Positions 3,913 to 62,825 of a DNA stretch of 64,000 bases are shown in pieces. Numbering within the stretch: the stretch's first letter is position 1; the number at the start of each line of letters is the position of its first letter. The DNA comes from Coriobacteriaceae bacterium AM48-5 (lineage in GTDB: Bacteria > Actinomycetota > Coriobacteriia > Coriobacteriales > Coriobacteriaceae). The translations under genes were made by a program, and so were the position numbers. The notes beneath the pieces are model-generated. The model saw only the letters and a list, made by a program, of their open reading frames with translations. It did not search any database and was not told where the DNA came from. The stretch lies in the NCBI GenBank assembly GCA_027669525.1, contig JAQEDJ010000001.1:62001-126000 (forward strand), in the 5' to 3' direction.

Positions 3913-4380
3913 ATGCGTCACAACGTTAAGAAGGGCCTGAAGCTCGGCACCGATGCGAGCCACACCAAGGCCATGAAGAAGAGCCTTGCTAAGGCCCTCT
4001 TCGAGAACGACCGCATCAAGACCACCGAGACCCGCGCTAAGGCGCTGCGTTCGGTCGTCGACCCGATCATCACCTGGGCCAAGAAGGGCGACCTGCACTC
4101 TCGTCGTCTGGCTATCGCCAAGCTCGGCGATAAGCAGCTCGTTGCCGAGATCTTCGACAAGGCTGCTCAGGGCATGTGGCAGGACCGCAACGGCGGTTAC
4201 ACCCGCATCATGAAGCTCGGTAACCGCAAGGGCGACAACGCTCCCATCGTTATCATGGAGCTCGTCACCGAGCCTTGCACGCCTAAGGCCAAGAAGGCTG
4301 CTCCGGCCCCCAAGAAGGCCGCTGCTCCCAAGAAGGTCGAGGCTGTCGAGGAGGCTCCTGCTGAGGAGACCGCTGAGTAG
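3913..4380 (+). CDS. rplQ: Ribosomal protein L17 with charged C-terminal tail
   Basis: L17 sits near the exit of the peptide tunnel. The conserved core runs from MRHNVKKGLKLGTD to about residue 118 (VIMELVTEP), with the usual NDRIKTTETRAKALR segment. A tail of about 37 residues, rich in Ala, Lys, Pro and Glu, follows the core. Similar low-complexity tails occur in other ribosomal proteins of this window (see rpmE). It is the last gene before a very strong terminator. Confidence 0.96.
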   Translation: MRHNVKKGLKLGTDASHTKAMKKSLAKALFENDRIKTTETRAKALRSVVDPIITWAKKGDLHSRRLAIAKLGDKQLVAEIFDKAAQGMWQDRNGGYTRIMKLGNRKGDNAPIVIMELVTEPCTPKAKKAAPAPKKAAAPKKVEAVEEAPAEETAE

Positions 4381-4406
4381 ACATTCCGTCTGCATAGGCT
4401 ATATTC

Positions 4407-4437
4407 GAGGGGTACGTTCGCGTACCCCTCTTTTTTT
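4407..4437 (+). terminator. Intrinsic terminator after rplQ
   Basis: A perfect 10-bp stem (GAGGGGTACG with CGTACCCCTC) closes on a UUCG tetraloop and is followed by seven T. It ends the ribosomal superoperon. Confidence 0.95.
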
Positions 4438-4472
4438 GTCGCGATACCGTTACTTGTTTGTTGGGAGCGCCC

Positions 4473-5297
4473 ATGACTGCGCCGTCTGATTTCAATTCGA
4501 TTTCCGAGCTTGACGCCACGCTCGTATTTCGCGTGGCCTATGATGGCTCGTCGTATAGCGGATTTGCCGAGCAGCCGGGACAGACGACGGTTGCGGGTGA
4601 GCTACGTCGAGCCATCGAGACGCTGCTTCGCCGCCCGATCGATCTGACGTGCGCGGGTCGTACCGATGCCGGCGTGCATGCCGTGGCTCAGTACATCAGC
4701 ATTCCCGTAACGGACGCTGAGCTCGCGTGTACGCGCCGTAGGTGGCTTCGGGCTATGGATGCCCTGCTGCCCAAAGATATCGCCATAAACGAGGTCTACA
4801 GGGCCCGTAAAGGCTTTTCTGCACGCTTTGACGCGCGTTCCCGTACGTATACATACCGTATTGCCGATCGCGATGCGCGCCCCGTGTTGTCCCGCGGTGC
4901 CGTGTGGTGGCATCGCTGTCCCCTCGACGTCGATGCGATGGCGGCCGCCTGCCCTGCGCTTTTGGGCGAGCAGGACTTTAAAAGCTTTTGCAAGGTTGCC
5001 TCTGCCGTGGGCAAACCTACGCACCGCTGCGTAATGCGCGCCGAGTTTGGCCATGAGGTTGCGTTTGGCGAGGACATCCTGACGTTTACCATCGAGGGCA
5101 ATGCGTTTCTGCATTCGATGGTCCGTACGATCGTTGGCACGCTTGTCGAGATTGGCATGCATCGCCGTAAACCCGAGTGGATGCGCGAGGTCATCGATGC
5201 TTGCGATCGTACCGCTGCGGGCCCCACGGCTCCTGCCTGCGGCCTTACGTTTATGGGCGTGGATTACGATCCCGCCGAGCTTGTCGTGCTCGACTAG
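4473..5297 (+). CDS. truA: tRNA pseudouridine synthase A
   Basis: TruA makes pseudouridine at positions 38-40 of tRNA anticodon arms. The family motifs are VAYDGSSYSGFAEQPGQTTV at the N-terminus and CAGRTDAGVHAVAQ, whose Asp is the catalytic nucleophile, then the C-terminal segment FLHSMVRTIVGTLVEIG. ATG 4473 is chosen because GGGAG lies 5 bp upstream. A TTG 15 bp earlier is also open. The product is 274 residues. The gene follows rplQ as in many Gram-positive bacteria, but behind a terminator. Confidence 0.96.
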   Translation: MTAPSDFNSISELDATLVFRVAYDGSSYSGFAEQPGQTTVAGELRRAIETLLRRPIDLTCAGRTDAGVHAVAQYISIPVTDAELACTRRRWLRAMDALLPKDIAINEVYRARKGFSARFDARSRTYTYRIADRDARPVLSRGAVWWHRCPLDVDAMAAACPALLGEQDFKSFCKVASAVGKPTHRCVMRAEFGHEVAFGEDILTFTIEGNAFLHSMVRTIVGTLVEIGMHRRKPEWMREVIDACDRTAAGPTAPACGLTFMGVDYDPAELVVLD

Positions 5298-49517: not shown

Positions 49518-49553
49518 AAGGGCCCGGTCGAATTCTCGGCCGGGGCCCTTTTG
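49518..49553 (+). terminator. Terminator after rubredoxin
   Basis: AAGGGCCCGG pairs with CCGGGGCCCTT and is followed by TTG; the stem is nearly perfect and can also act on the opposite strand. Confidence 0.75.
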
Positions 49554-49603
49554 ATTAATCTGACGGTTTAAAACGGCCTTACGTGTACAGATTGAGACGT
49601 TAT
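49553..49603. repeat. Degenerate ATCTGTAAC palindrome
   Basis: TTAATCTGACG and CGTGTACAGATTGAGACG look like decayed arms of the 57-nt repeat (compare 51007-51223). It lies between rubredoxin and the 3' end of mntH. Confidence 0.45.
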
Positions 49604-51006: not shown

Positions 51007-51223
51007 GTCTTGATCTGTAACAACTAGGGATGGAAATTGGGTCTAGGTGTTACAGATCAAGACAAGAAGAAATGGTCCTATGGAAAATCTCGATCTGTAA
51101 CAGTTAGCTGCAAAAACTGGCCCTTCGTGTTACAGATTGAAACATTCGGAACCGTCTCTCGAAAACATCTCAATCTGTAACAGTTAGTCGTCGAAATTGG
51201 GTCTTCCTGTTACAGATTGAGAT
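51007..51223. repeat. 80-bp-period palindrome array A (three units)
   Basis: Units at 51007-51063, 51087-51143 and 51167-51223 are each 57 nt. Each has an arm ending ATCTGTAAC, a 27-nt middle and an inverted arm starting GTTACAGAT. Arms pair over 15 bp (unit 1, perfect) and 21 bp (unit 3, perfect). The 23-nt gaps between units differ in sequence. The middle has a shared pattern (TAG, then A-rich, then GG.C.T). Confidence 0.9.
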
Positions 51224-51313
51224 GTTTGAAGCGGTGAGTTTACAGGTCGAACTTGGGGCCCTGTCGTTGTCCTTGAGGTCGGCGGTGTCCACTCGTAGGG
51301 CGTGCGTTACGCG

Positions 51314-51340
51314 ATTGTTTCGAAACGGGCGGGAAACACA
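51314..51340. promoter_or_regulatory. Possible nitrogen-control site upstream of gltB
   Basis: ATTGTTTCGAAAC (51314-51326) shares a 12-mer with the argR upstream palindrome and is followed by GGGCGGGAAAC. Together with GTTAC at 51306-51310 the spacing of GTTAC/GTTTC and GAAAC/GAAAC (11 nt each) recalls GlnR-type boxes. This is a pattern match only. Confidence 0.35.
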
Positions 51341-51405
51341 ACGGGCCGGTGATGCTTCTAGTATGCCTATTCAACTGACTGTCTAACACCAAGGGGAGGA
51401 TCGCG

Positions 51406-54400
51406 ATGCAGGCAGATTCCGCTCAGCAGCAGGGCCTTTATCGCCCCGAATTCGACCACGATGCATGTGGCATCGGCGCGCTTGCCGATATCAACGGCGA
51501 GCGCCATCACCAGATTCTGGACGACGCACTGTCCATTCTGGTCAACTTGGAGCACCGCGGCGGCACCGGACTCGAGAAGAACACCGGCGACGGCGCCGGA
51601 ATCCTGTTCCAGGTTCCGCATCACTTTTTCCGTAAAGAGGCCCAAAAGTGCGGCCAGATTCTGCCGGCAGAGGGCGACTATGGTGTGGCCATGCTGTTCT
51701 TCCCGCAGGACGACAAGGGCGTAGAGGATGCCCGTCGCGTGTTTGAGGAGGGCTGCGCCGAGGCCGGCGTGCCGCTGCTCTTTTGGCGCGAGGTGCCGGT
51801 CGACCCGCACGACCTGGGCGAGACGGCTCGCGCTTGCATGCCTACTATCCTGCAGGCCTTCCTGGGACGTCCGGACGACACGCCCGCCGGCGATGCCTTT
51901 GAGCGTCGCCTGTACGTGTGCCGCCGCACCATCGAAAAGAAGGCCGACGCTGAGTTCGCCCTGCGCGACAAGATCTTCTATGTGTGCTCCATGAGCTCGC
52001 GCACCATCGTGTACAAGGGCATGCTGGTCGCCACACAGATGCGCCGCTTCTTCATCGACCTCAACGACGCCGCCGTCAAAACGGCCGTGGCGCTCGTCCA
52101 TTCGCGCTACTCCACCAATACCACGCCCAGCTGGGAGCGCGCGCACCCTAACCGCTTTATCATCCACAACGGTGAGATCAACACCCTCAAGGGTAACGTC
52201 AACTGGATTCGCGCCCGCGAACCCAACCTGTACAGCCCTGTGCTGCAGCACGATCTTGAGCGCGTGATGCCCATCATCAACCGCGAGGGTTCCGACTCCG
52301 CGATTCTGGATAACGTGCTCGAATTTTTGGTCATGAACGGTCGCCCGCTCACGCGTGCCGCGTCCATGTTGCTGCCCGAGCCGTGGGACCACAACGACAG
52401 CCTGAGTGAGGAGCGCCGCGCCTACGACGCTTACCAGTCCATGCTCATGGAGCCGTGGGATGGCCCGGCGGCCATCGCCTTTACCGACGGTCGCACGCTG
52501 GGTGCCGCCCTCGACCGTAACGGCCTGCGCCCCGCCCGCTACTATGTGACGCGCGACGGTCGCTTTATGCTGGCAAGCGAGGTGGGCACCATCGAGGTGA
52601 GCCCCGAGAACATCCTGACGAGCGGCTGTCTGGGACCGGGCCAGATGCTCGAGGTCGACTTTGCCCGCGGGCGCGTCATCTACAACGATGAGCTGCGTGC
52701 CCGTTACGCCAAGGAAAAGCCCTACCGTGATTGGATTGCCGAGGAGACGCTAACCGTTGACGCGCTCGATGAGCCCGTTGCGGCAACGCCCGCCGAGGAC
52801 GCCGAGGTGCCCGCCGCCGTGCGTATGGCCAAGCTCGGCTACCACTGGGATGACGTCGACGAGGTCGTGCGTCCCATGGCCCAGCAGGGCAAGGCACCGC
52901 TCGCTTCGATGGGCATCGATGCGCCGCTGGCCTGCCTGTCCAAGAAGACGCGCTCGTTCTTTGACTACTTCTATCAGCTGTTCGCCCAGGTTACGAACCC
53001 GCCGATCGACGCCCTGCGCGAGCATATGGTCACCTCGACCACGCTCTACCTGGCAACCACGGCAACCTGCTCGAGGATTCCCGCACGGCCTGTCAGCTGG
53101 TGCGCCTGGAGCGTCCGCTGCTGAGCGAGGAGGAGTTCGACCGCATTTGCGCCATCGACCGCGTGGGCTTTAAGACCCGCCGTTTCCGTGCCGTCTACCG
53201 CCGCGATGCCGGCGAGGGCGCGCTGCAGGCTGCGCTCAAGCAGCTTGCAGAGGACGTTGAGGCTGCGGTCCGCGACGGCGTCAACATTGTGGTGTTGAGC
53301 GATCGTGCCGCTGCGGGCGAGGTGCCCGTGCCGTCGCTGCTCGCCGTGGGATGCGTGCACAACCACCTGATCCGCGCCGGCGTGCGTACCTTTGCCGACA
53401 TCGTGGTGGAGTGCGGCGATGCCGTGTCTCCGCACGACTTTGCGGCACTGGTGGGCTACTCCGCGAGCGGCATCTATCCGTACAACGCACATGCGTGCAT
53501 CCGCGATCTGGCGGCGCACGGCGATCTGGACGTGACAGCCGAGCAGGGCATCGCCAACTACAACAAGGCTGCGACCGCCGGCATCGTTTCCATCATGTCC
53601 AAGATGGGCATCTCCACGGTGCAGAGCTACCACTCTGCGCAGATCTTCGAGGCCGTGGGCTTTACGCCGGAGTTTGTCAACGCGTACTTCGCTGGCACGG
53701 TGAGCCGTGTGGGCGGTATGGGTGTCGAGGACGTCGAGCGCGAGCAAAACGAGCGCTACGACGCCGCGCTCGCTATCCTTAAGAGCCCGGCTCCCGATCA
53801 GCTGCCCACGTTGGGTCTGACCAAGTGGCACCCGCTCGGCGGCGAGGATCACCTCATCGATCCGCAGACTGTCTACTTGCTGCAGACCGCCTGCCGTGAG
53901 GACAGCTACGACACCTTTAAGGAGTACAGCGTCCGCCTGCACCGCACCGGCCGTGCCGTTCGCCTGCGCGACTTGCTCGACTTTAATGCCAACGGTCGAA
54001 CGCCGATGGCACTCGACGAGGTCGAGCCTGCGCTCAACATCGTCCGCCGCTTTAACACCGGCGCCATGTCGTATGGCTCCATTAGCAAAGAGGCACACGA
54101 GTGCATGGCCATCGCCATGAACCGCCTACACGGCCGTTCCAACTCGGGCGAGGGCGGTGAGGATCCGCGTCGCGAGACCCCGCTGGCCAACGGCGACTCC
54201 AAGAACTCCGCGATCAAGCAGGTGGCAAGCGCGCGCTTTGGCGTGACGAGCCGTTACCTGTGCAGCGCCTTCGAGATTCAGATCAAGATGGCCCAGGGCG
54301 CCAAGCCTGGCGAGGGCGGTCACCTGCCCGGCAAGAAGGTCTACCCTTGGATTGCCGAGGTCCGTCAGTCCACACCCGGTATCGGCCTGATCTCGCCTCC

Positions 54401-56101
54401 GCCGCACCACGACATCTACTCCATCGAGGACTTGGCGGAGCTGATTTTCGATCTTAAGAACGCCAACCCCGGCGCTCGCGTGTCGGTCAAGCTGGTCAGC
54501 GAGGCCGGCGTCGGCACCATCGCCACTGGTGTTGCCAAGGGCGCTGCCGACAAGATTTTGATCAGCGGCCACAACGGCGGCTCCGGTGCCGCGGCGCGCG
54601 ATTCGATCTGGCACGCCGGTCTGCCGCTGGAGCTCGGTCTTGCCGAGGCCCAGCAGACGCTGCTGCAAAACGGCCTGCGCTCGCGCGTGGTGCTCGAGGC
54701 CGACGGCAAGCTCATGGACGGCACCGATGTCGCCGTCGCCTGCCTGCTGGGTGCCGAGGAGTTTGGCTTTGCGACCATGCCGCTCATCTCGATGGGCTGC
54801 CTCATGCAGCGTGACTGCCAGCAGGATACCTGCCCGGCCGGCATCGCCACGCAAAACTGCCGCCTGCGTCGCGGCTTCCGCGGCAAGCCCGAGCACGTTG
54901 AGCACTTTATGCTCTTTGTTGCCGAGCAGCTGCGCGAGGTCATGGCGAGCCTGGGCTTCCGCACCGTCGACGAGATGGTCGGCCATCCCGAGTGCCTGCG
55001 CCAGATCGAGGTCCCGGCAACCGCAAGGCTAACCTGCTGGATCTGTCGCCCGTGCTGGCGAGCGCGACTTGCGAGTTCGGTGCCCACATCCCGGGTGCCG
55101 ACGGCCGTCACTTCCTGCCCCAGATGGCTGCGGACAGCGAGCTCGACAAGACGCTCGACTCCACGTTGTTTGTGCCCTATACGGCCGATGCCCGTGCGCA
55201 CTTGCGTCCGATTCGCTTCCGCGCCGACATCGCCAACGTCAACCGCTGCGTGGGCACCATTTTGGGCAACGCGGTGACCAAGGCGCATCCCGAGGGCCTG
55301 CCCGCCGGCTCCATCACCATCGATTGCGATGGTTCGGCCGGTCAGAGCTTTGGCGCCTTCCTGCCGTGCGGCATCACGCTCAACGTGTGCGGCGACGCCA
55401 ACGACTACTTTGGCAAGGGCCTTTCGGGCGGCGAGGTGTCGGTGCGCCCCAACCCGCATGCGACCTACAAGTTCGACGAAAACATCATCGTGGGCAACGT
55501 TGCGTTCTTTGGCGCCACGAGCGGCCGCGGCTTCATCAACGGCCTGGCCGGCCAGCGCTTTGGCGTACGCAACTCCGGTGCCACCGTGGTGGTCGAGGGC
55601 TGCGGCAACCATGGCTGCGAGTACATGACGGGCGGTCTGGCGCTCATCTTGGGCGAGGTCGGGCAGAATTTTGCCGCCGGCATGACAGGTGGCGTGGCCT
55701 ATGTCTTTGACCAGTACGGCACGCTCGATGCCCGTGTGAACCACGAGAGCGTTGAGCTCAAGGCCCCGACGGCCGGCGAGCTGGCACAGATTCGTGCGCT
55801 CATCCAGGAGCACGTGGACGCGACGCAGAGCCCGCGCGGCATTAAGCTGCTCTACAGCTTTGAGACGATGAGCAAGCACTTTGTGAAGGTCATTCCGACC
55901 GAGTACGAGCGCGTGCTGGCGATTGTCGCGGCGGGCGAGGCTGCCGGCAAGACGCATGCGCAGGCAGAGGAGCTGGCGTTTGACATCGTGACCGGTCGCG
56001 CGAGTGCCGCGGATGTCGCTCGCTTCGATGTCGCAGGCGGTGCTGCGAGCGCTGCGTCCGTGGCTGCCAGCTCTGTTGCTTCGACCAAGAAGGAGGCGTA
56101 A
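51406..56101 (+). CDS. gltB: Glutamate synthase, large subunit (two bases missing)
   Basis: The large subunit makes glutamate from glutamine and 2-oxoglutarate. The repaired length is about 1565 residues. A propeptide of about 21 residues precedes the catalytic Cys in HDACGIGALADI (class II amidotransferase). The FMN/synthase domain holds SYGSISKEAHE, GAKPGEGGHLPG and GHNGGSGAA. The 3Fe-4S cysteines lie in MGCLMQRDCQQDTCPAG. The C-terminal beta-helix is Gly-rich (GRGFINGLAG). Frames join near 53052 and 55016, each by one G before GCAAC. ATG 51406 has GGGGAGG. Confidence 0.96.
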
Positions 56102-56106
56102 GTGCC

Positions 56107-57586
<1,480 letters not shown>

Positions 57587-57655
57587 AGTAGTCATTTAAG
57601 AACGTCCCCAATGACTAGTCATTTTTTGTCTAGTCGTTGGGGACACTCTTTGCGA
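57587..57655. repeat. CTAGTC/GGGGACG repeat, copy 3
   Basis: AGTCATTTAAGAACGTCCCC, then AATGACTAGTCATT, then CTAGTCGTTGGGGACACTC. The two blocks are inverted, so the element folds as GTCCCCAATGACTAG with CTAGTCGTTGGGGAC. It abuts the gltD stop. Confidence 0.75.
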
Positions 57656-57939
57656 GCGATTTGCTCGTTTGTCGACGTGTGGGTGCTCATTTGCCGACTT
57701 CTTGGGTTGTGGCCACCTGTTGTTTCTGTGGTGGCTGCGGGCATCTGGCTCAAAAGGGCGGGTGTGCCGTCTATGTTTACCTGCGGTTTTGTTGCGGTGT
57801 GCATTTTCGGTCAAGCTTTTCGTCAAGTGTTTGGTCAGCATCTGGTTTGCAGCCGGAGGCCTATTTTGCCCGTGCTGACAGTGGCTGCCCACCCTCCTCG
57901 TAAGCTCAAATTGAGGTCCATCAGTTTGAGGAGGATGCC
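57656..57939. other. Leader region of the next gene
   Basis: About 280 bp after the repeat with several short open frames but none with an SD or recognisable product. No clear promoter was identified. A GAGGAGGATG SD is at the end. Confidence 0.4.
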
Positions 57940-58647
57940 ATGACTGACCACGCTTTAGACCGAGCGCAGCTGTCCGAAGCCGTCGGCAACGATATTGCCG
58001 ACATGACCCATTTTTGGATGCTGCGGAAGTTCCAGTTTTTGGAGCCGGCGCGCGAGCAGTTCGAGATCATTGTCGACCCGTGGCTCAGCTATTGCACCGA
58101 GCCTTCGCAAAACGAAATCATGGCCTACAACATGGCATTTACCGATTGGCTGCTCTTCGAGCGCCCCTATCGCCATGGCAAGACGCTGCTCGAGCTGTAT
58201 GTTGAAGAGCCGCCGACATCGCTTTCGCCTGCCTCGCTCAAGCGGCTCGAGCAGGTACGCGACACGCAGTATTTCTCGCGCTTTGGCATTTTGGACAAGG
58301 ATCCTGCGACTGGTATGGTCGCGCTGAAGGACACGCGCGCCGACCGTCGCTTTGATGTCTACGACCCGCATATCGTGCAAAAGGAGCATTGGAGCGACGG
58401 AGCGATTGCGGTGCGCCTCGCCTGCGTCGACGATGTCTGGCTGACGGCGGGACAACTCTATCTGTATGACATCGCACGCCTGAGTGACACGGCGGTCGAT
58501 GGGCCTGGTGCGGTGCATCCGGAGGACCTGCAGGATGGCTTTGACACCTCGTGCATCAGCTTCTTTTTGCGCCTGGTCCGCGACATCATGGGCGCCCAGG
58601 GGCGGTACGTAAAGTCGCTCAACATCTACGAGCAGGAGTGGGAGTAG
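57940..58647 (+). CDS. Hypothetical protein, 235 residues
   Basis: I do not recognise this protein. It is soluble in composition, acidic and rich in aromatic residues (MTHFWMLRKFQFLEP, NMAFTDWLLFERPYRHGKT, WLTAGQLYLYDIARL), with no signal peptide, membrane helix or metal motif. The second half has strand-like stretches (TGMVALKDTRADRRFDVYD). GAGGAGG lies 6 bp before ATG 57940, so expression is likely. A single 57-nt palindrome follows its stop. Confidence 0.75.
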   Translation: MTDHALDRAQLSEAVGNDIADMTHFWMLRKFQFLEPAREQFEIIVDPWLSYCTEPSQNEIMAYNMAFTDWLLFERPYRHGKTLLELYVEEPPTSLSPASLKRLEQVRDTQYFSRFGILDKDPATGMVALKDTRADRRFDVYDPHIVQKEHWSDGAIAVRLACVDDVWLTAGQLYLYDIARLSDTAVDGPGAVHPEDLQDGFDTSCISFFLRLVRDIMGAQGRYVKSLNIYEQEWE

Positions 58648-58689
58648 GGGATGGACCTGGCGTTGTCCTGCCTTGCCTTCTGTCTTTAT

Positions 58690-58746
58690 GTCTCGATCTG
58701 TAACGTTTAGGGGCCTGGAGAACGTCTACCCGTTACAGATCAAGAC
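58690..58746. repeat. 57-nt palindrome, single copy
   Basis: GTCTCGATCTGTAACG and CGTTACAGATCAAGAC pair with one mismatch over 16 bp around a 25-nt middle. It has the same total length as the units of arrays A and B and lies between the hypothetical gene and the AbiEi/DUF559-like gene. Confidence 0.88.
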
Positions 58747-58849
58747 GTTTTTCAGCGGAGGCAACGTTGGCGATGGTCCATTTGTCTGACGTGGTGGTGA
58801 TGAAAGTGTCTAATACCGTTCTTAAACACAAGCATGCAACACGAACACC

Positions 58850-59841
58850 TTGGCGCGGAATAGGATGCTCGCGCGGCTCACGGAGACGACCGAGCAAGGT
58901 GCGCTGCTCGCAACGCATGACAACACCGAGCTCATGTGGCTGCGACGCCATGTCGGAACCGATGATATCGCGGAGCCCGAGTCGTATCTGTTCTGTTTTC
59001 AACATGATTGGGATACGTTGACACCGGCGGAGCGAGCACTGCGTACCATCAAAGGGCTTGCGGAGTTTCATCCCGATTGGGCGTTTTGGGGCTATGACGC
59101 GGTGCTTTTGTGGGGTTTGGAGGTGCCGAATGATCTGCTTGGGCCACGATATCTTGTTAAGACAGGTTGCTCGGTGCCGCTGAGTGCAGGATGCCGGCTG
59201 TTGCGCCCGCAGGCGGCGGGTGCACTTGAACAAGTCGACGGCGTGCAGGTGACGTCGTTTTGGCGCACGGTGAGGATTGCTTGCTACGTGTGCCGTTCTC
59301 CTACGGGTTGGCGATTGCCGATTCTGCACTGCGGGCGAAAGGTGTATCACGTGGGGATTTGTGCGAGCGCCTCCGCGCCGATTGCGAGGGCAGGCGCGGG
59401 TATCGCAGAGCGCAGGTGATCGCGTCATATGCGGACGGGCTGTCCGAAAACGGCGGCGAGTCACGGTTCCGAGCGTTCTTTATTGCATACGGTTTTCCGG
59501 TTCCGGAGTTGCAGGTGGAGTTTCGCGATCCGCTCGATTCGAGCCAGGTGTTTCGGGTTGATTATTTCTGGAGGCTCGAGGACGGGACATGTGTTATCGG
59601 CGAGCTCGACGGGAAGGGAAAGTATACGCTGCAGGATGGTGGGGATCGGGAGTCGGTCGACCCATTCGTGGCAGAACGTCAGCGAGAGTCCCATCTGACG
59701 ATGCTCGGACATAAAGTACTGAGGTTTACGTTTAACGAACTCAAGAACCCGGGGAAACTGGCTGAAAAGATGAGACTGGCGGGCATTCCGCAGCGGGTCA
59801 ATCTGGCGGAGGAATGGAGACGGCAGTGGTATGGGCACTAA
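58850..59841 (+). CDS. AbiEi-like / DUF559-like protein (one base missing)
   Basis: The repaired length is about 330 residues (TTG 58850; ATG 58865 is an alternative). The N-terminal 180 residues resemble AbiEi-type antitoxin proteins (ALRTIKGLAEFHPDWAFWGYDAVLLWGLEVP, then TSFWRTVEDCLLR). The C-terminal 130 residues resemble a PD-(D/E)xK nuclease fold of the DUF559/Vsr kind: ESRFRAFFIAYGFPVPELQVEF, VDYFW (Asp), GELDGKGKY (ExDxK-like), RQRESHLTMLGHKVLRFT. Frames join near 59272 by one G. It is flanked by palindrome arrays on both sides, with no toxin gene beside it. No clear SD was seen. Confidence 0.65.
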
Positions 59842-60328
59842 GGGGTGCAACTGACGCGGAGGTGGTTGTTCCTGCCGAGTTTGTCTCAATCTGTAACAAC
59901 AAGGGACCGTTTGGCCTCGTAACTGTTACAGATTGAGACGGAAGGTTGGCTACCGCTAAAAGATCTCAATCTGTAACATCTAGAGGCCGAAAACCTGTCT
60001 ACTTGTTACAGATTTAGATGTTTGACGACAGGGCTGGAGAATATCTTAATCTGTAACATCTAACGGCCAAAAACCGCTCTAACTGTTACAGATCGAGACA
60101 AAGGTTGGACGCACGACTGATAATCTCGATCTGTAACATCTGGCTGCTAAAACCCGGTCTACCTGTTACAGATCAAGACATTTCCCGGATGTCGCTGGGG
60201 TGGGACTGCAACGCATTCCGTTCTCCGCATCTCCTTCTTGCTCCGTTAACCGATATGTCCCCAACAATTCCGCCGCGCTAGGTAATAATGGACAAATGTT
60301 CAAGTTTTCTGAGGGGGAGGAGCTCGAT
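59842..60328. other. 487-bp gap holding array B and the amidohydrolase promoter
   Basis: No protein gene is supported. It holds the four-unit array (59883-60179), then about 150 bp with GTAATAATGG near 60284 as a possible -10 region for the amidohydrolase. Confidence 0.6.
59883..60179. repeat. 80-bp-period palindrome array B (four units)
   Basis: Units at 59883-59939, 59963-60019, 60043-60099 and 60123-60179 are each exactly 57 nt and start exactly 80 bp apart. Unit 1 arms GTCTCAATCTGTAACA and TGTTACAGATTGAGAC pair perfectly. Units 2-4 have a few mismatches. The 23-nt intervals differ in sequence. Middles share TCTA/TCTGG, an A-run and GTCTAC-like ends. Confidence 0.92.
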
Positions 60329-61699
60329 ATGGCGACTGCCGATCGTCCCACGTTGTTTATCAATGCGACCGTTTTGGATGGCTCGGAGCATATGGAGCCG
60401 CAGCCCGATATGGCCGTGGCCGTTGAGCGCGGTGTCATCACATGGATGGGGCCGAGTGCTGTCGCGCAGGCGCCGGCGGGTGCCGAGGTCATCGACCTGG
60501 GCGGTGCGTATCTCATGCCGGGCCTCATCAATATGCACGTGCATCTGTGTGGTTCGGGCAAACCGGTCTCGGCGGGCGATGCGGGCGCGCTCATGAAGAA
60601 ACTCGACAATCCCGTGGGCCGCGCCATCGTCCGCCACATCCTCAAAGGCAGCGCCCAGCAGCAGTTGGCAAGCGGCGTGACCACGGTGCGCGGTGCGGGT
60701 GACCCGCTGTTTGCCGATATCGCCGTGCGCAACGCTATCGATGCCGGCAAGTATCAGGGTCCGCGTCTGGTGGCGCCGGGAACGGGTGTCACGGTGCCGG
60801 GCGGTCACGGTGCGGGGCTGTTCGCGCAGGTCGCCGATACCCCCGATGAGGCGGCCGAACAAGTGCGTGACTTGTATGCGCGCGGTGCTGATGTCATTAA
60901 GCTGTTCGTGACGGGCGGTGTGTTCGATGCGACCGAGGTGGGCGAGCCGGGCGTGCTGCGCATGCCGGTCGAGGTTGCCGCGGCGGCGTGCAAGGCGGCG
61001 CACGAGGTGGGCCTGCCGGTTATGGCCCATGTCGAGAGCACCGAAGGCGTGAAGGCCGCGCTTGAGGCCGGCGTCGACACGATTGAGCACGGTGCCCCGA
61101 TGACTCCCGAAATCTTGGATCTGTACCGCGGTGCCGCTGGGACGCAGCTTGAGGGGCGTGCACCGAGCGTTACCTGCACAATCAGCCCGGCGCTGCCGTT
61201 TGTGCTGCTCGACCCGGAGAAGACCCATTCGACCGATACGCAAAAGAAGAACGGCGATATCGTGTGCTCGGGTATTATCGAGAGCGCTCGCGCCGCACTG
61301 GAAGCTGGCGTTAAGGTGGGCCTGGGCACGGACTCAAGCTGTCCGTTCGTGACGCAGTACGACATGTGGCGCGAGGTAGCCTATTTTGCCAAGTACGTGG
61401 GCGTGAGCAACGCCTTTGCGCTGCATACGGCCACGCAGGTCAATGCCGAGCTGCTGGGGCTGGGCGGCGAGACCGGTACGATCGAGTGCGGCAAGGCCGC
61501 CGATATCCTGGTGACGCGCAAGAATCCGCTCGATGACCTGCGCGCTCTGCGTGAGCCGATGCATGTGATGTGCCGCGGCGATCTGGTGCGCAAGCTGAAG
61601 GTGAAGCGCATCCCCGAGGTGGACGCCGAGCTCGACGCGATTATGGCCATGCCTGCCGAGGCGTTGGCCGAGGAGCTTGCCCGCGACGGTGTGGCGTAG
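60329..61699 (+). CDS. Metal-dependent amidohydrolase (imidazolonepropionase/prolidase-like)
   Basis: This 456-residue protein has the amidohydrolase TIM barrel: PGLINMHVHLCGSG (HxH metal pair), VIKLFVTGGV (Lys for carboxylation), VMAHVES, TIEHGAPM and GLGTDSSCPFV (last Asp), ending in the small beta domain with ECGKAADILVTRKNPLDDL. It resembles the imidazolonepropionase-like and Xaa-Pro dipeptidase-like group. The substrate cannot be told. ATG 60329 has GGGGGAGGAG upstream. A terminator follows. Confidence 0.88.
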   Translation: MATADRPTLFINATVLDGSEHMEPQPDMAVAVERGVITWMGPSAVAQAPAGAEVIDLGGAYLMPGLINMHVHLCGSGKPVSAGDAGALMKKLDNPVGRAIVRHILKGSAQQQLASGVTTVRGAGDPLFADIAVRNAIDAGKYQGPRLVAPGTGVTVPGGHGAGLFAQVADTPDEAAEQVRDLYARGADVIKLFVTGGVFDATEVGEPGVLRMPVEVAAAACKAAHEVGLPVMAHVESTEGVKAALEAGVDTIEHGAPMTPEILDLYRGAAGTQLEGRAPSVTCTISPALPFVLLDPEKTHSTDTQKKNGDIVCSGIIESARAALEAGVKVGLGTDSSCPFVTQYDMWREVAYFAKYVGVSNAFALHTATQVNAELLGLGGETGTIECGKAADILVTRKNPLDDLRALREPMHVMCRGDLVRKLKVKRIPEVDAELDAIMAMPAEALAEELARDGVA

Positions 61700-62690: not shown

Positions 62691-62735
62691 AGCGGGTCCT
62701 CGTTTCTGGTCGATCTTCCGGATGCCCCCGTCAGC

Positions 62736-62796
62736 TGCGGTGAAATACGGACCGTTTAAAGGCCTAGGGCGGCACAACAGTCCGTATTTCACCGCA
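62736..62796. repeat. 17-bp inverted repeat between csoR and copZ
   Basis: TGCGGTGAAATACGGAC (62736-62752) and GTCCGTATTTCACCGCA (62780-62796) are perfect inverted copies around 27 nt containing CCTAGG. It may be a hairpin terminator of copZ, an operator, or a dispersed repeat. Confidence 0.75.
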
Positions 62797-62825
62797 ACTT
62801 CTGAGGATTGAGTAGGCGGCGTCTG

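Follow-up and report, generated by a model that had tools for sequence, protein, structure and literature searches.

What maintains arrays of a single palindrome, repeated at an exact period, at three separate places in one stretch of a Coriobacteriaceae genome? The stretch (64,000 nucleotides of contig JAQEDJ010000001.1 from Coriobacteriaceae bacterium AM48-5, hereafter the window, with positions counted from its first letter) carries these arrays between mntH and gltB and on both sides of an AbiEi/Vsr-like gene. An earlier note on this DNA had suggested RNA structures, protein-binding arrays or substrates of a mobile nuclease. Judging from sequence comparisons, we consider it likely that the arrays in this common gut bacterium are dispersed cognate sites of the AbiEi/Vsr-like protein, the product of a single-copy gene. 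The latter two roles fit, cleavage being a prediction, because the product of the gene that the arrays flank combines a DNA-binding part with a nuclease fold and because the flanks of related genes match beyond controls; RNA structures did not fit.

Units, step and distribution

The pattern ATCTGTAAC-N27-GTTACAGAT, whose units form what we call the F1 family, occurred exactly eight times in the window (at 51013, 51093, 51173, 58696, 59889, 59969, 60049 and 60129), compared to an expected count of 0 in 100 shuffles of it, which bore out the eight copies at three sites described before. All eight units are exact pattern matches on the + strand. Three units of 57 nt lie between mntH and gltB (51007..51063, 51087..51143 and 51167..51223), one stands to the left of an open reading frame (ORF) of the AbiEi/DUF559 kind (58690..58746), at a site that holds 2 to 4 units in several other genomes, and four lie to its right (59883..59939, 59963..60019, 60043..60099 and 60123..60179). 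The arms are incompletely complementary in the second unit of the mntH-gltB array and in the second, third and fourth units of the right-hand array. The decayed copy reported on the + strand beside the 3' end of mntH (49553..49603) is visible in the sequence; in five other loci (L008, L014, L056, L087 and L122) the gap on that side of the gene carries 2 to 4 units.

The 80-bp period, the fixed 27-nt middle and the mutually dissimilar 23-nt intervals were all confirmed in the window. Across 139 sequences (138 loci and the window) we found 430 units, 425 of them with a 27-bp middle, and the period recurred at other loci, with a step of 80 or 81 bp in 251 of 259 distinct neighbouring pairs; one of 235 spacings between neighbouring units holds an N run. 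Simple recent tandem duplication was considered as the origin of the step. Spacers within an array are about as unlike each other as the spacers of unrelated arrays (32% identity compared to 29%, the latter figure leaving out pairs of at least 60% identity), and the step is therefore not the trace of such duplication. The mntH-gltB spacers are conserved between genomes, some of which have lost two units through a deletion inside the array, and at a second locus the array size differs strongly between genomes, from 1 to 5 units. Mycobacterial interspersed repetitive units (MIRU) and bacterial interspersed mosaic elements (BIME) are likewise tandem intergenic units that vary in number between strains, but in F1 the spacers are mutually unrelated and the arms alone are conserved. 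An array of clustered regularly interspaced short palindromic repeats (CRISPR) was rejected on the grounds that the middles diverge and the mntH-gltB spacers are conserved between orthologues, although no search aimed at cas genes was made.

Exact F1 copies were present in 23 of 43 genomes of the genus, 22 with 18 to 47 copies each and one, G014, with a single copy and otherwise without arrays. In a scan of one genome per species, all but 2 of 80 stretches among the matches listed were labelled Collinsella, many of them C. aerofaciens. Two short pattern matches, L040 (a Prolixibacteraceae contig) and L096 (a Rhodobacteraceae contig), were discarded, as their outer arms do not fit. The F1-rich genomes belong to the Collinsella aerofaciens complex and form one clade, since GltB is 99% identical to that of the window in twelve array-rich genomes and 80 to 86% identical in ten others with a GltB match.

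Arms as candidate double-strand half-sites

The arms had been described as varying in concert, which was taken to point to selection on pairing. Concerted variation holds for units 51007, 51167 and 59883, while the other five units have unmatched arm positions, and it did not survive as a rule for the family. For this we used 149 thinned units out of 376 distinct ones and compared columns with A or G in the left arm to columns with T or C in the right arm. At the variable pair -1/45 the counts were G-C 41, A-C 41, A-T 35 and G-T 29, i.e., 52% pairing compared to 48% by chance, and at -6/50 pairing was 46% compared to 51% by chance. Between orthologues, 265 changes at -1/45 were one-sided and 55 two-sided (33 expected; the pairs are non-independent). 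Covariation of any weight was thus missing from the F1 arms, and selection on pairing was left unsupported. The test is able to detect covariation, because a second family from the same genomes, GTTGCGGTG-N47-CACCGCAAC, was fully concerted at columns 15 and 17 (100% compared to 52%; 23 thinned of 36 distinct units). One unit of this second family, with one mismatch, lies in the window at 62734-62798.

These figures bear directly on the idea that the units are RNA or single-strand DNA hairpins with selected pairing. The arms are long and could pair, the units are recovered by a covariance model built with 22 pairs, mutual information at -1/45 and -6/50 slightly exceeds that of shuffles (z about 3), and the stronger of the two signals comes from arm positions -5 to -3, where rare changes co-occur. 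However, with pairing near chance and single-sided changes prevailing, with the same test succeeding on the GTTGCGGTG family, and with no Rfam match at gathering scores over the units, this idea is already contradicted, and we regard it as very improbable.

The arms are nevertheless constrained. In 553 orthologous array pairs (non-independent), the core arm columns differed at 0.1 to 4.5% and columns -1/45 and -2/46 at 16 to 24%, compared to 14% for spacers, 16% for middles and 8% for outer flanks, which are partly coding; the F1 arms thus evolve far slower than the spacers. Lone half-sites were practically absent, with 12 matches, nine of which had two mismatches, and the three exact ones lay next to a run of N, at the end of a contig, or as the surviving in-register arm of a degenerate unit. 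Because the arms are constrained although pairing is unselected, and lone half-sites are nearly absent, the arms look like paired half-sites on double-stranded DNA. Each unit (57 to 63 bp) would then be a paired recognition site, with two half-sites of some 24 bp, WWNR-TCTC-R-ATCTGTAACA-NN-TAG, inverted relative to each other across a fixed-length spacer whose centre is A/T.

Repetitive extragenic palindromic (REP) sequences and their hairpin-forming doublets (REPIN) accompany REP-associated tyrosine transposases (RAYT), in which a gene for a Y1 HUH transposase is bracketed by, and associated with, its own dispersed intergenic palindromes, which form hairpins. That the F1 units are REP/BIME elements of such a transposase is the least credible of the explanations weighed here. 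They are dispersed intergenic palindromes, Y1_Tnp genes are present, and hairpins of another sequence, GGTGCCTGTCCCC, adjoin many arrays; however, Y1_Tnp genes occur in 30 of 35 genomes, whether these bear arrays or not, the F1 arms vary independently, and the four Y1_Tnp genes of G001 are more than 110 kb from any unit. In that genome no Y1 (PF01797) gene is flanked by units: the genes lie at 96, 674, 707 and 810 kb, with the nearest unit at 211 kb, 114 kb off. With hairpin pairing unselected as well, REP-RAYT was rejected, and the statement that the arrays fit neither CRISPR nor REP/BIME stood, given also that spacers are unrelated within arrays and that those at mntH-gltB are conserved between orthologues. 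As for the GGTGCCTGTCCCC hairpins themselves, they adjoin 37 of 191 F1 arrays of the fetched loci with a fixed polarity at the array ends (39 outward and 5 inward within 60 bp, of 76 sites), at distances that cluster near 20, 30 and 41 bp, many of the loci being orthologues.

The AbiEi/Vsr-like gene and the flanks of its relatives

The gene between unit 58690 and the array starting at 59883 spans 58774..59841 on the + strand; an intact relative lies in L058 (1932-2999). In the window it is frameshifted, with open pieces at 58767-59021, 58850-59419 and 59260-59841 and a start near 58774 that was read by eye. In the predicted fold of the L058 protein, residues from about 24 to 221 form an AbiEi-like, winged-helix part for DNA binding, and residues 224-339 a Vsr/I-Bth0305I-like PD-(D/E)XK nuclease domain fused to it. 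The family of the window gene has the AbiEi-like fold, and the Vsr-like fold comes with conserved residues of catalytic type, invariant in 15 of 15 aligned proteins. Searching solved structures by sequence returned no useful match. Similar to the AbiE type IV toxin-antitoxin proteins AbiEi and Rv2827c, the family has a winged-helix AbiEi fold, but no DUF1814 (AbiEii) toxin was found at the two window neighbours (57940-58647, of no family, and 60200-61699, an amidohydrolase), a nuclease domain is fused, and the sites are genome-wide and on both sides of the gene. Unlike Vsr-like homing endonucleases such as I-Bth0305I, this is a stand-alone gene for a predicted nuclease, bracketed by palindromes that recur elsewhere.

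The gene had at first been set aside as a partner of the arrays, as G001, G010 and G011 lack it. This was reversed with G025, a genome without F1 arrays, in which a de novo palindrome search over 400 kb found a different half-site family, GAGTGGCGG, with steps of 29-57-29. The AbiEi-like gene of G025 lies between two GAGTGGCGG arrays, and because this copy is placed between arrays of different palindromes the gene was taken as the partner. A dispersed palindrome resembling TGTGACAAAATAAACCTGTCGACTTTTTGTCACA, short and highly conserved, is also present in G025 C15 (L198, L199, L205-L207, L209 and L211).

Related genes were then compared for sequence common to both of their flanks. The Collinsella set comprised 22 loci, namely 20 AbiEi-like genes of the genus and the leads L058 and L202, and 14 of them had at least 12 11-mers common to both 500-bp flanks (L058 among them, L202 not; 13 of 20 when both leads are removed), compared to 0.29% of 3118 random segments that share at least 8. 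Fifteen loci (the 13 other passers, L202 and L256) were examined closely. Ten of these (L240, L247, L248, L250, L251 and L253-L257) have matched long palindromes of 51 to 104 bp, one per side, with sequences that differ between gene lineages, and L239, L242, L243, L249 and L202 have more complex arrays of common half-sites. Outside Collinsella but within the order, 17 of 35 loci (all those with DNA returned, out of 45 distinct matches) passed with 550-bp flanks, compared to 0.34% of 1190 cross-locus pairs, and a perfect palindrome arm of at least 14 was present in 18 of 70 flanks, compared to 4.7% of random windows. Overall, flank sequence was common to both sides in 31 of 57 related loci. Within one family, 22 of 41 genomes carry AbiEi/Vsr-like genes. 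Two further observations concern paralogues: the GTTGCGGTG-N47-CACCGCAAC family, whose arms covary, flanks another AbiEi/Vsr-like paralogue in L254/L255, and a third C. aerofaciens paralogue (L243 in G012, flanks of 3955-4953) has palindrome arrays with a step of about 62 bp, as seen by eye.

Of 16 array-rich genomes, 13 have an orthologue of the gene (at least 81% identity), and all of 19 others lack one; the G024 copy has stop codons, and those of G005 and G027 are at contig ends. In G001, where the gene is gone, one hybrid unit has the outer flanks of both arrays that bracket the gene in G059, the result of crossing-over between flanking units.

Several observations weigh against the arrays being sites of this protein. 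Arrays are borne without an orthologue by G001, G010 and G011, and the gene is broken in G024 and in the window. Arms are barely worse without an intact gene, a non-significant difference that is a trend only: 35 of 45 units are perfect in G059, where the gene is intact, 33 of 48 in G024 (p 0.35 compared to G059) and 24 of 42 in G001 (p 0.10). The co-occurrence of arrays and gene counts once, because the array-rich genomes are one clade. The L058 protein reached the threshold for no Pfam family and matched nothing in PADLOC, and its best Foldseek match (6y8q, E 0.003) missed the E 0.001 cut-off. The flank threshold was missed by 8 of the 22 loci from Collinsella and by 18 of the 35 from other genera, the high scorers L302 and L321 have little or no long palindrome, so that their common flanks may be another repeat, and the loci are partly orthologous to one another (L254 and L255). 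Finally, no clean insertion site with target duplication was found. For L247, a 360-aa paralogue in G001, dispersed copies of its own palindrome were not above shuffles (4 and 4 in 381 kb), so dispersal is not shown for every paralogue.

The frameshifts of the window gene may be sequencing errors, because gltB is also broken there, into overlapping ORFs at 51406-53124, 53100-55277 and 54992-56101, and is intact in relatives. The pair 56107-56919/56816-57586 looks split too, by frameshifts or sequence errors.

Genomic context and the possible role of the system

AbiEi and Rv2827c are reported to bind paired 23-bp inverted repeats and to autoregulate through inverted repeats (PMC7319586). The palindromes could thus be only operators of an AbiEi-type repressor, serving gene autoregulation and a dispersed regulon or titration, with the nuclease fold incidental. 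In G059, 4 of 18 arrays lie between divergent genes (trained ORFs), and sugar genes recur among the 30 of 36 array neighbours that were scanned: three GH1 glycosidases, two LacI regulators, a glycogen phosphorylase and a MalK-like ATPase. On the other hand, 8 of 18 arrays lie between convergent genes, the other neighbours are mixed (EF-Tu, ClpB-like, DXS, PreP-like, DEAD helicase), palindromes stand on both sides of the gene, beyond its promoter, and the nuclease residues are invariant, which makes operators alone a rather doubtful account. A promoter or terminator role was rejected, as the orientations of flanking ORFs are mixed, both among rough ORFs and among the trained ORFs of G059.

The sites could instead organise the chromosome for another lineage-specific protein, the AbiEi/Vsr-like neighbour being coincidental. 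They are dispersed, intergenic and constrained, arrays persist without the gene, and by array there was a weak origin-side bias (p 0.03-0.09 in G001, G059 and G024, two of them with rounded lengths). However, little bias was left when clusters within 20 kb were merged (p_V 0.03-0.17, p_R 0.10-0.39), and terminus- or origin-domain sites were rejected accordingly. No ParB-like protein beyond the chromosomal ParB was common to array-rich genomes; a Noc/ParB-type partner was dismissed, since array-rich and array-poor genomes alike have one chromosomal ParB, with extra ParB-like matches in some of both. Given also the common flank sequence of the related loci, we find a chromosome-organising role distinctly improbable. 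An insertion element, such as a miniature inverted-repeat transposable element (MITE), was rejected too: neither the two empty places of F1 in G001 nor the 14 pairs of F2 flanks, taken from two places, gave a clean empty site or a target duplication, and no significant flank identity was found. By eye, L237 and L141 have a prophage-like segment with an integrase-like ORF, seemingly at the thiD end, beside an F1 array or its empty place.

The reading that we prefer is a two-part system, in which a gene bracketed by its own sites is accompanied by tens of dispersed intergenic copies, single or in 80/81-bp arrays. The reader of the units would be the AbiEi/Vsr-like protein, two monomers binding a unit head to head so that their nuclease domains may meet over its centre, and binding or cutting might spread or maintain the sites. 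We infer a nuclease-plus-repeat system that parallels REP/RAYT but uses an unrelated protein: as there, one gene is bracketed by its own dispersed palindromes, but an AbiEi-like protein of Vsr-like nuclease fold stands in place of the Y1 HUH transposase, and the units look like double-strand half-sites with an exact 80/81-bp step, not hairpins. No open-access paper that connects AbiEi or DUF559 proteins with dispersed palindromes, or that treats Collinsella repeats, was found among the listed titles and abstract openings, and the evidence points to an undescribed kind of protein-and-repeat system.

The system could be a selfish homing-like element, a many-operator regulator or a domesticated nuclease that maintains its sites. 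Of these, the homing-like element is favoured by the nuclease fold, by sites that stand on either side of the gene, by a centre of fixed length and by the scar of a solo site. Homing might then resemble a natural transcription activator-like effector nuclease (TALEN): AbiEi-like monomers on the half-sites would pair two Vsr-like nuclease domains over the centre, the gene would copy itself into cut units, and recombination between flanking units would remove it, leaving solo units much as solo long terminal repeats, while new paralogues, each with a new palindrome, would have emerged again and again within the order. We consider this specific route possible but less probable than not, because no clean insertion sites were found and cutting is a prediction.

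The protein family is numerous (786 and 717 database matches, mostly unnamed in listings), and its members gain testable candidate DNA targets, one per paralogue. The system offers a possible origin for dispersed palindromes in these gut bacteria and, next to RAYT, another protein family that may maintain repeats of this sort. If cutting proves true, the family would hold many natural sequence-specific nucleases with readable half-sites.
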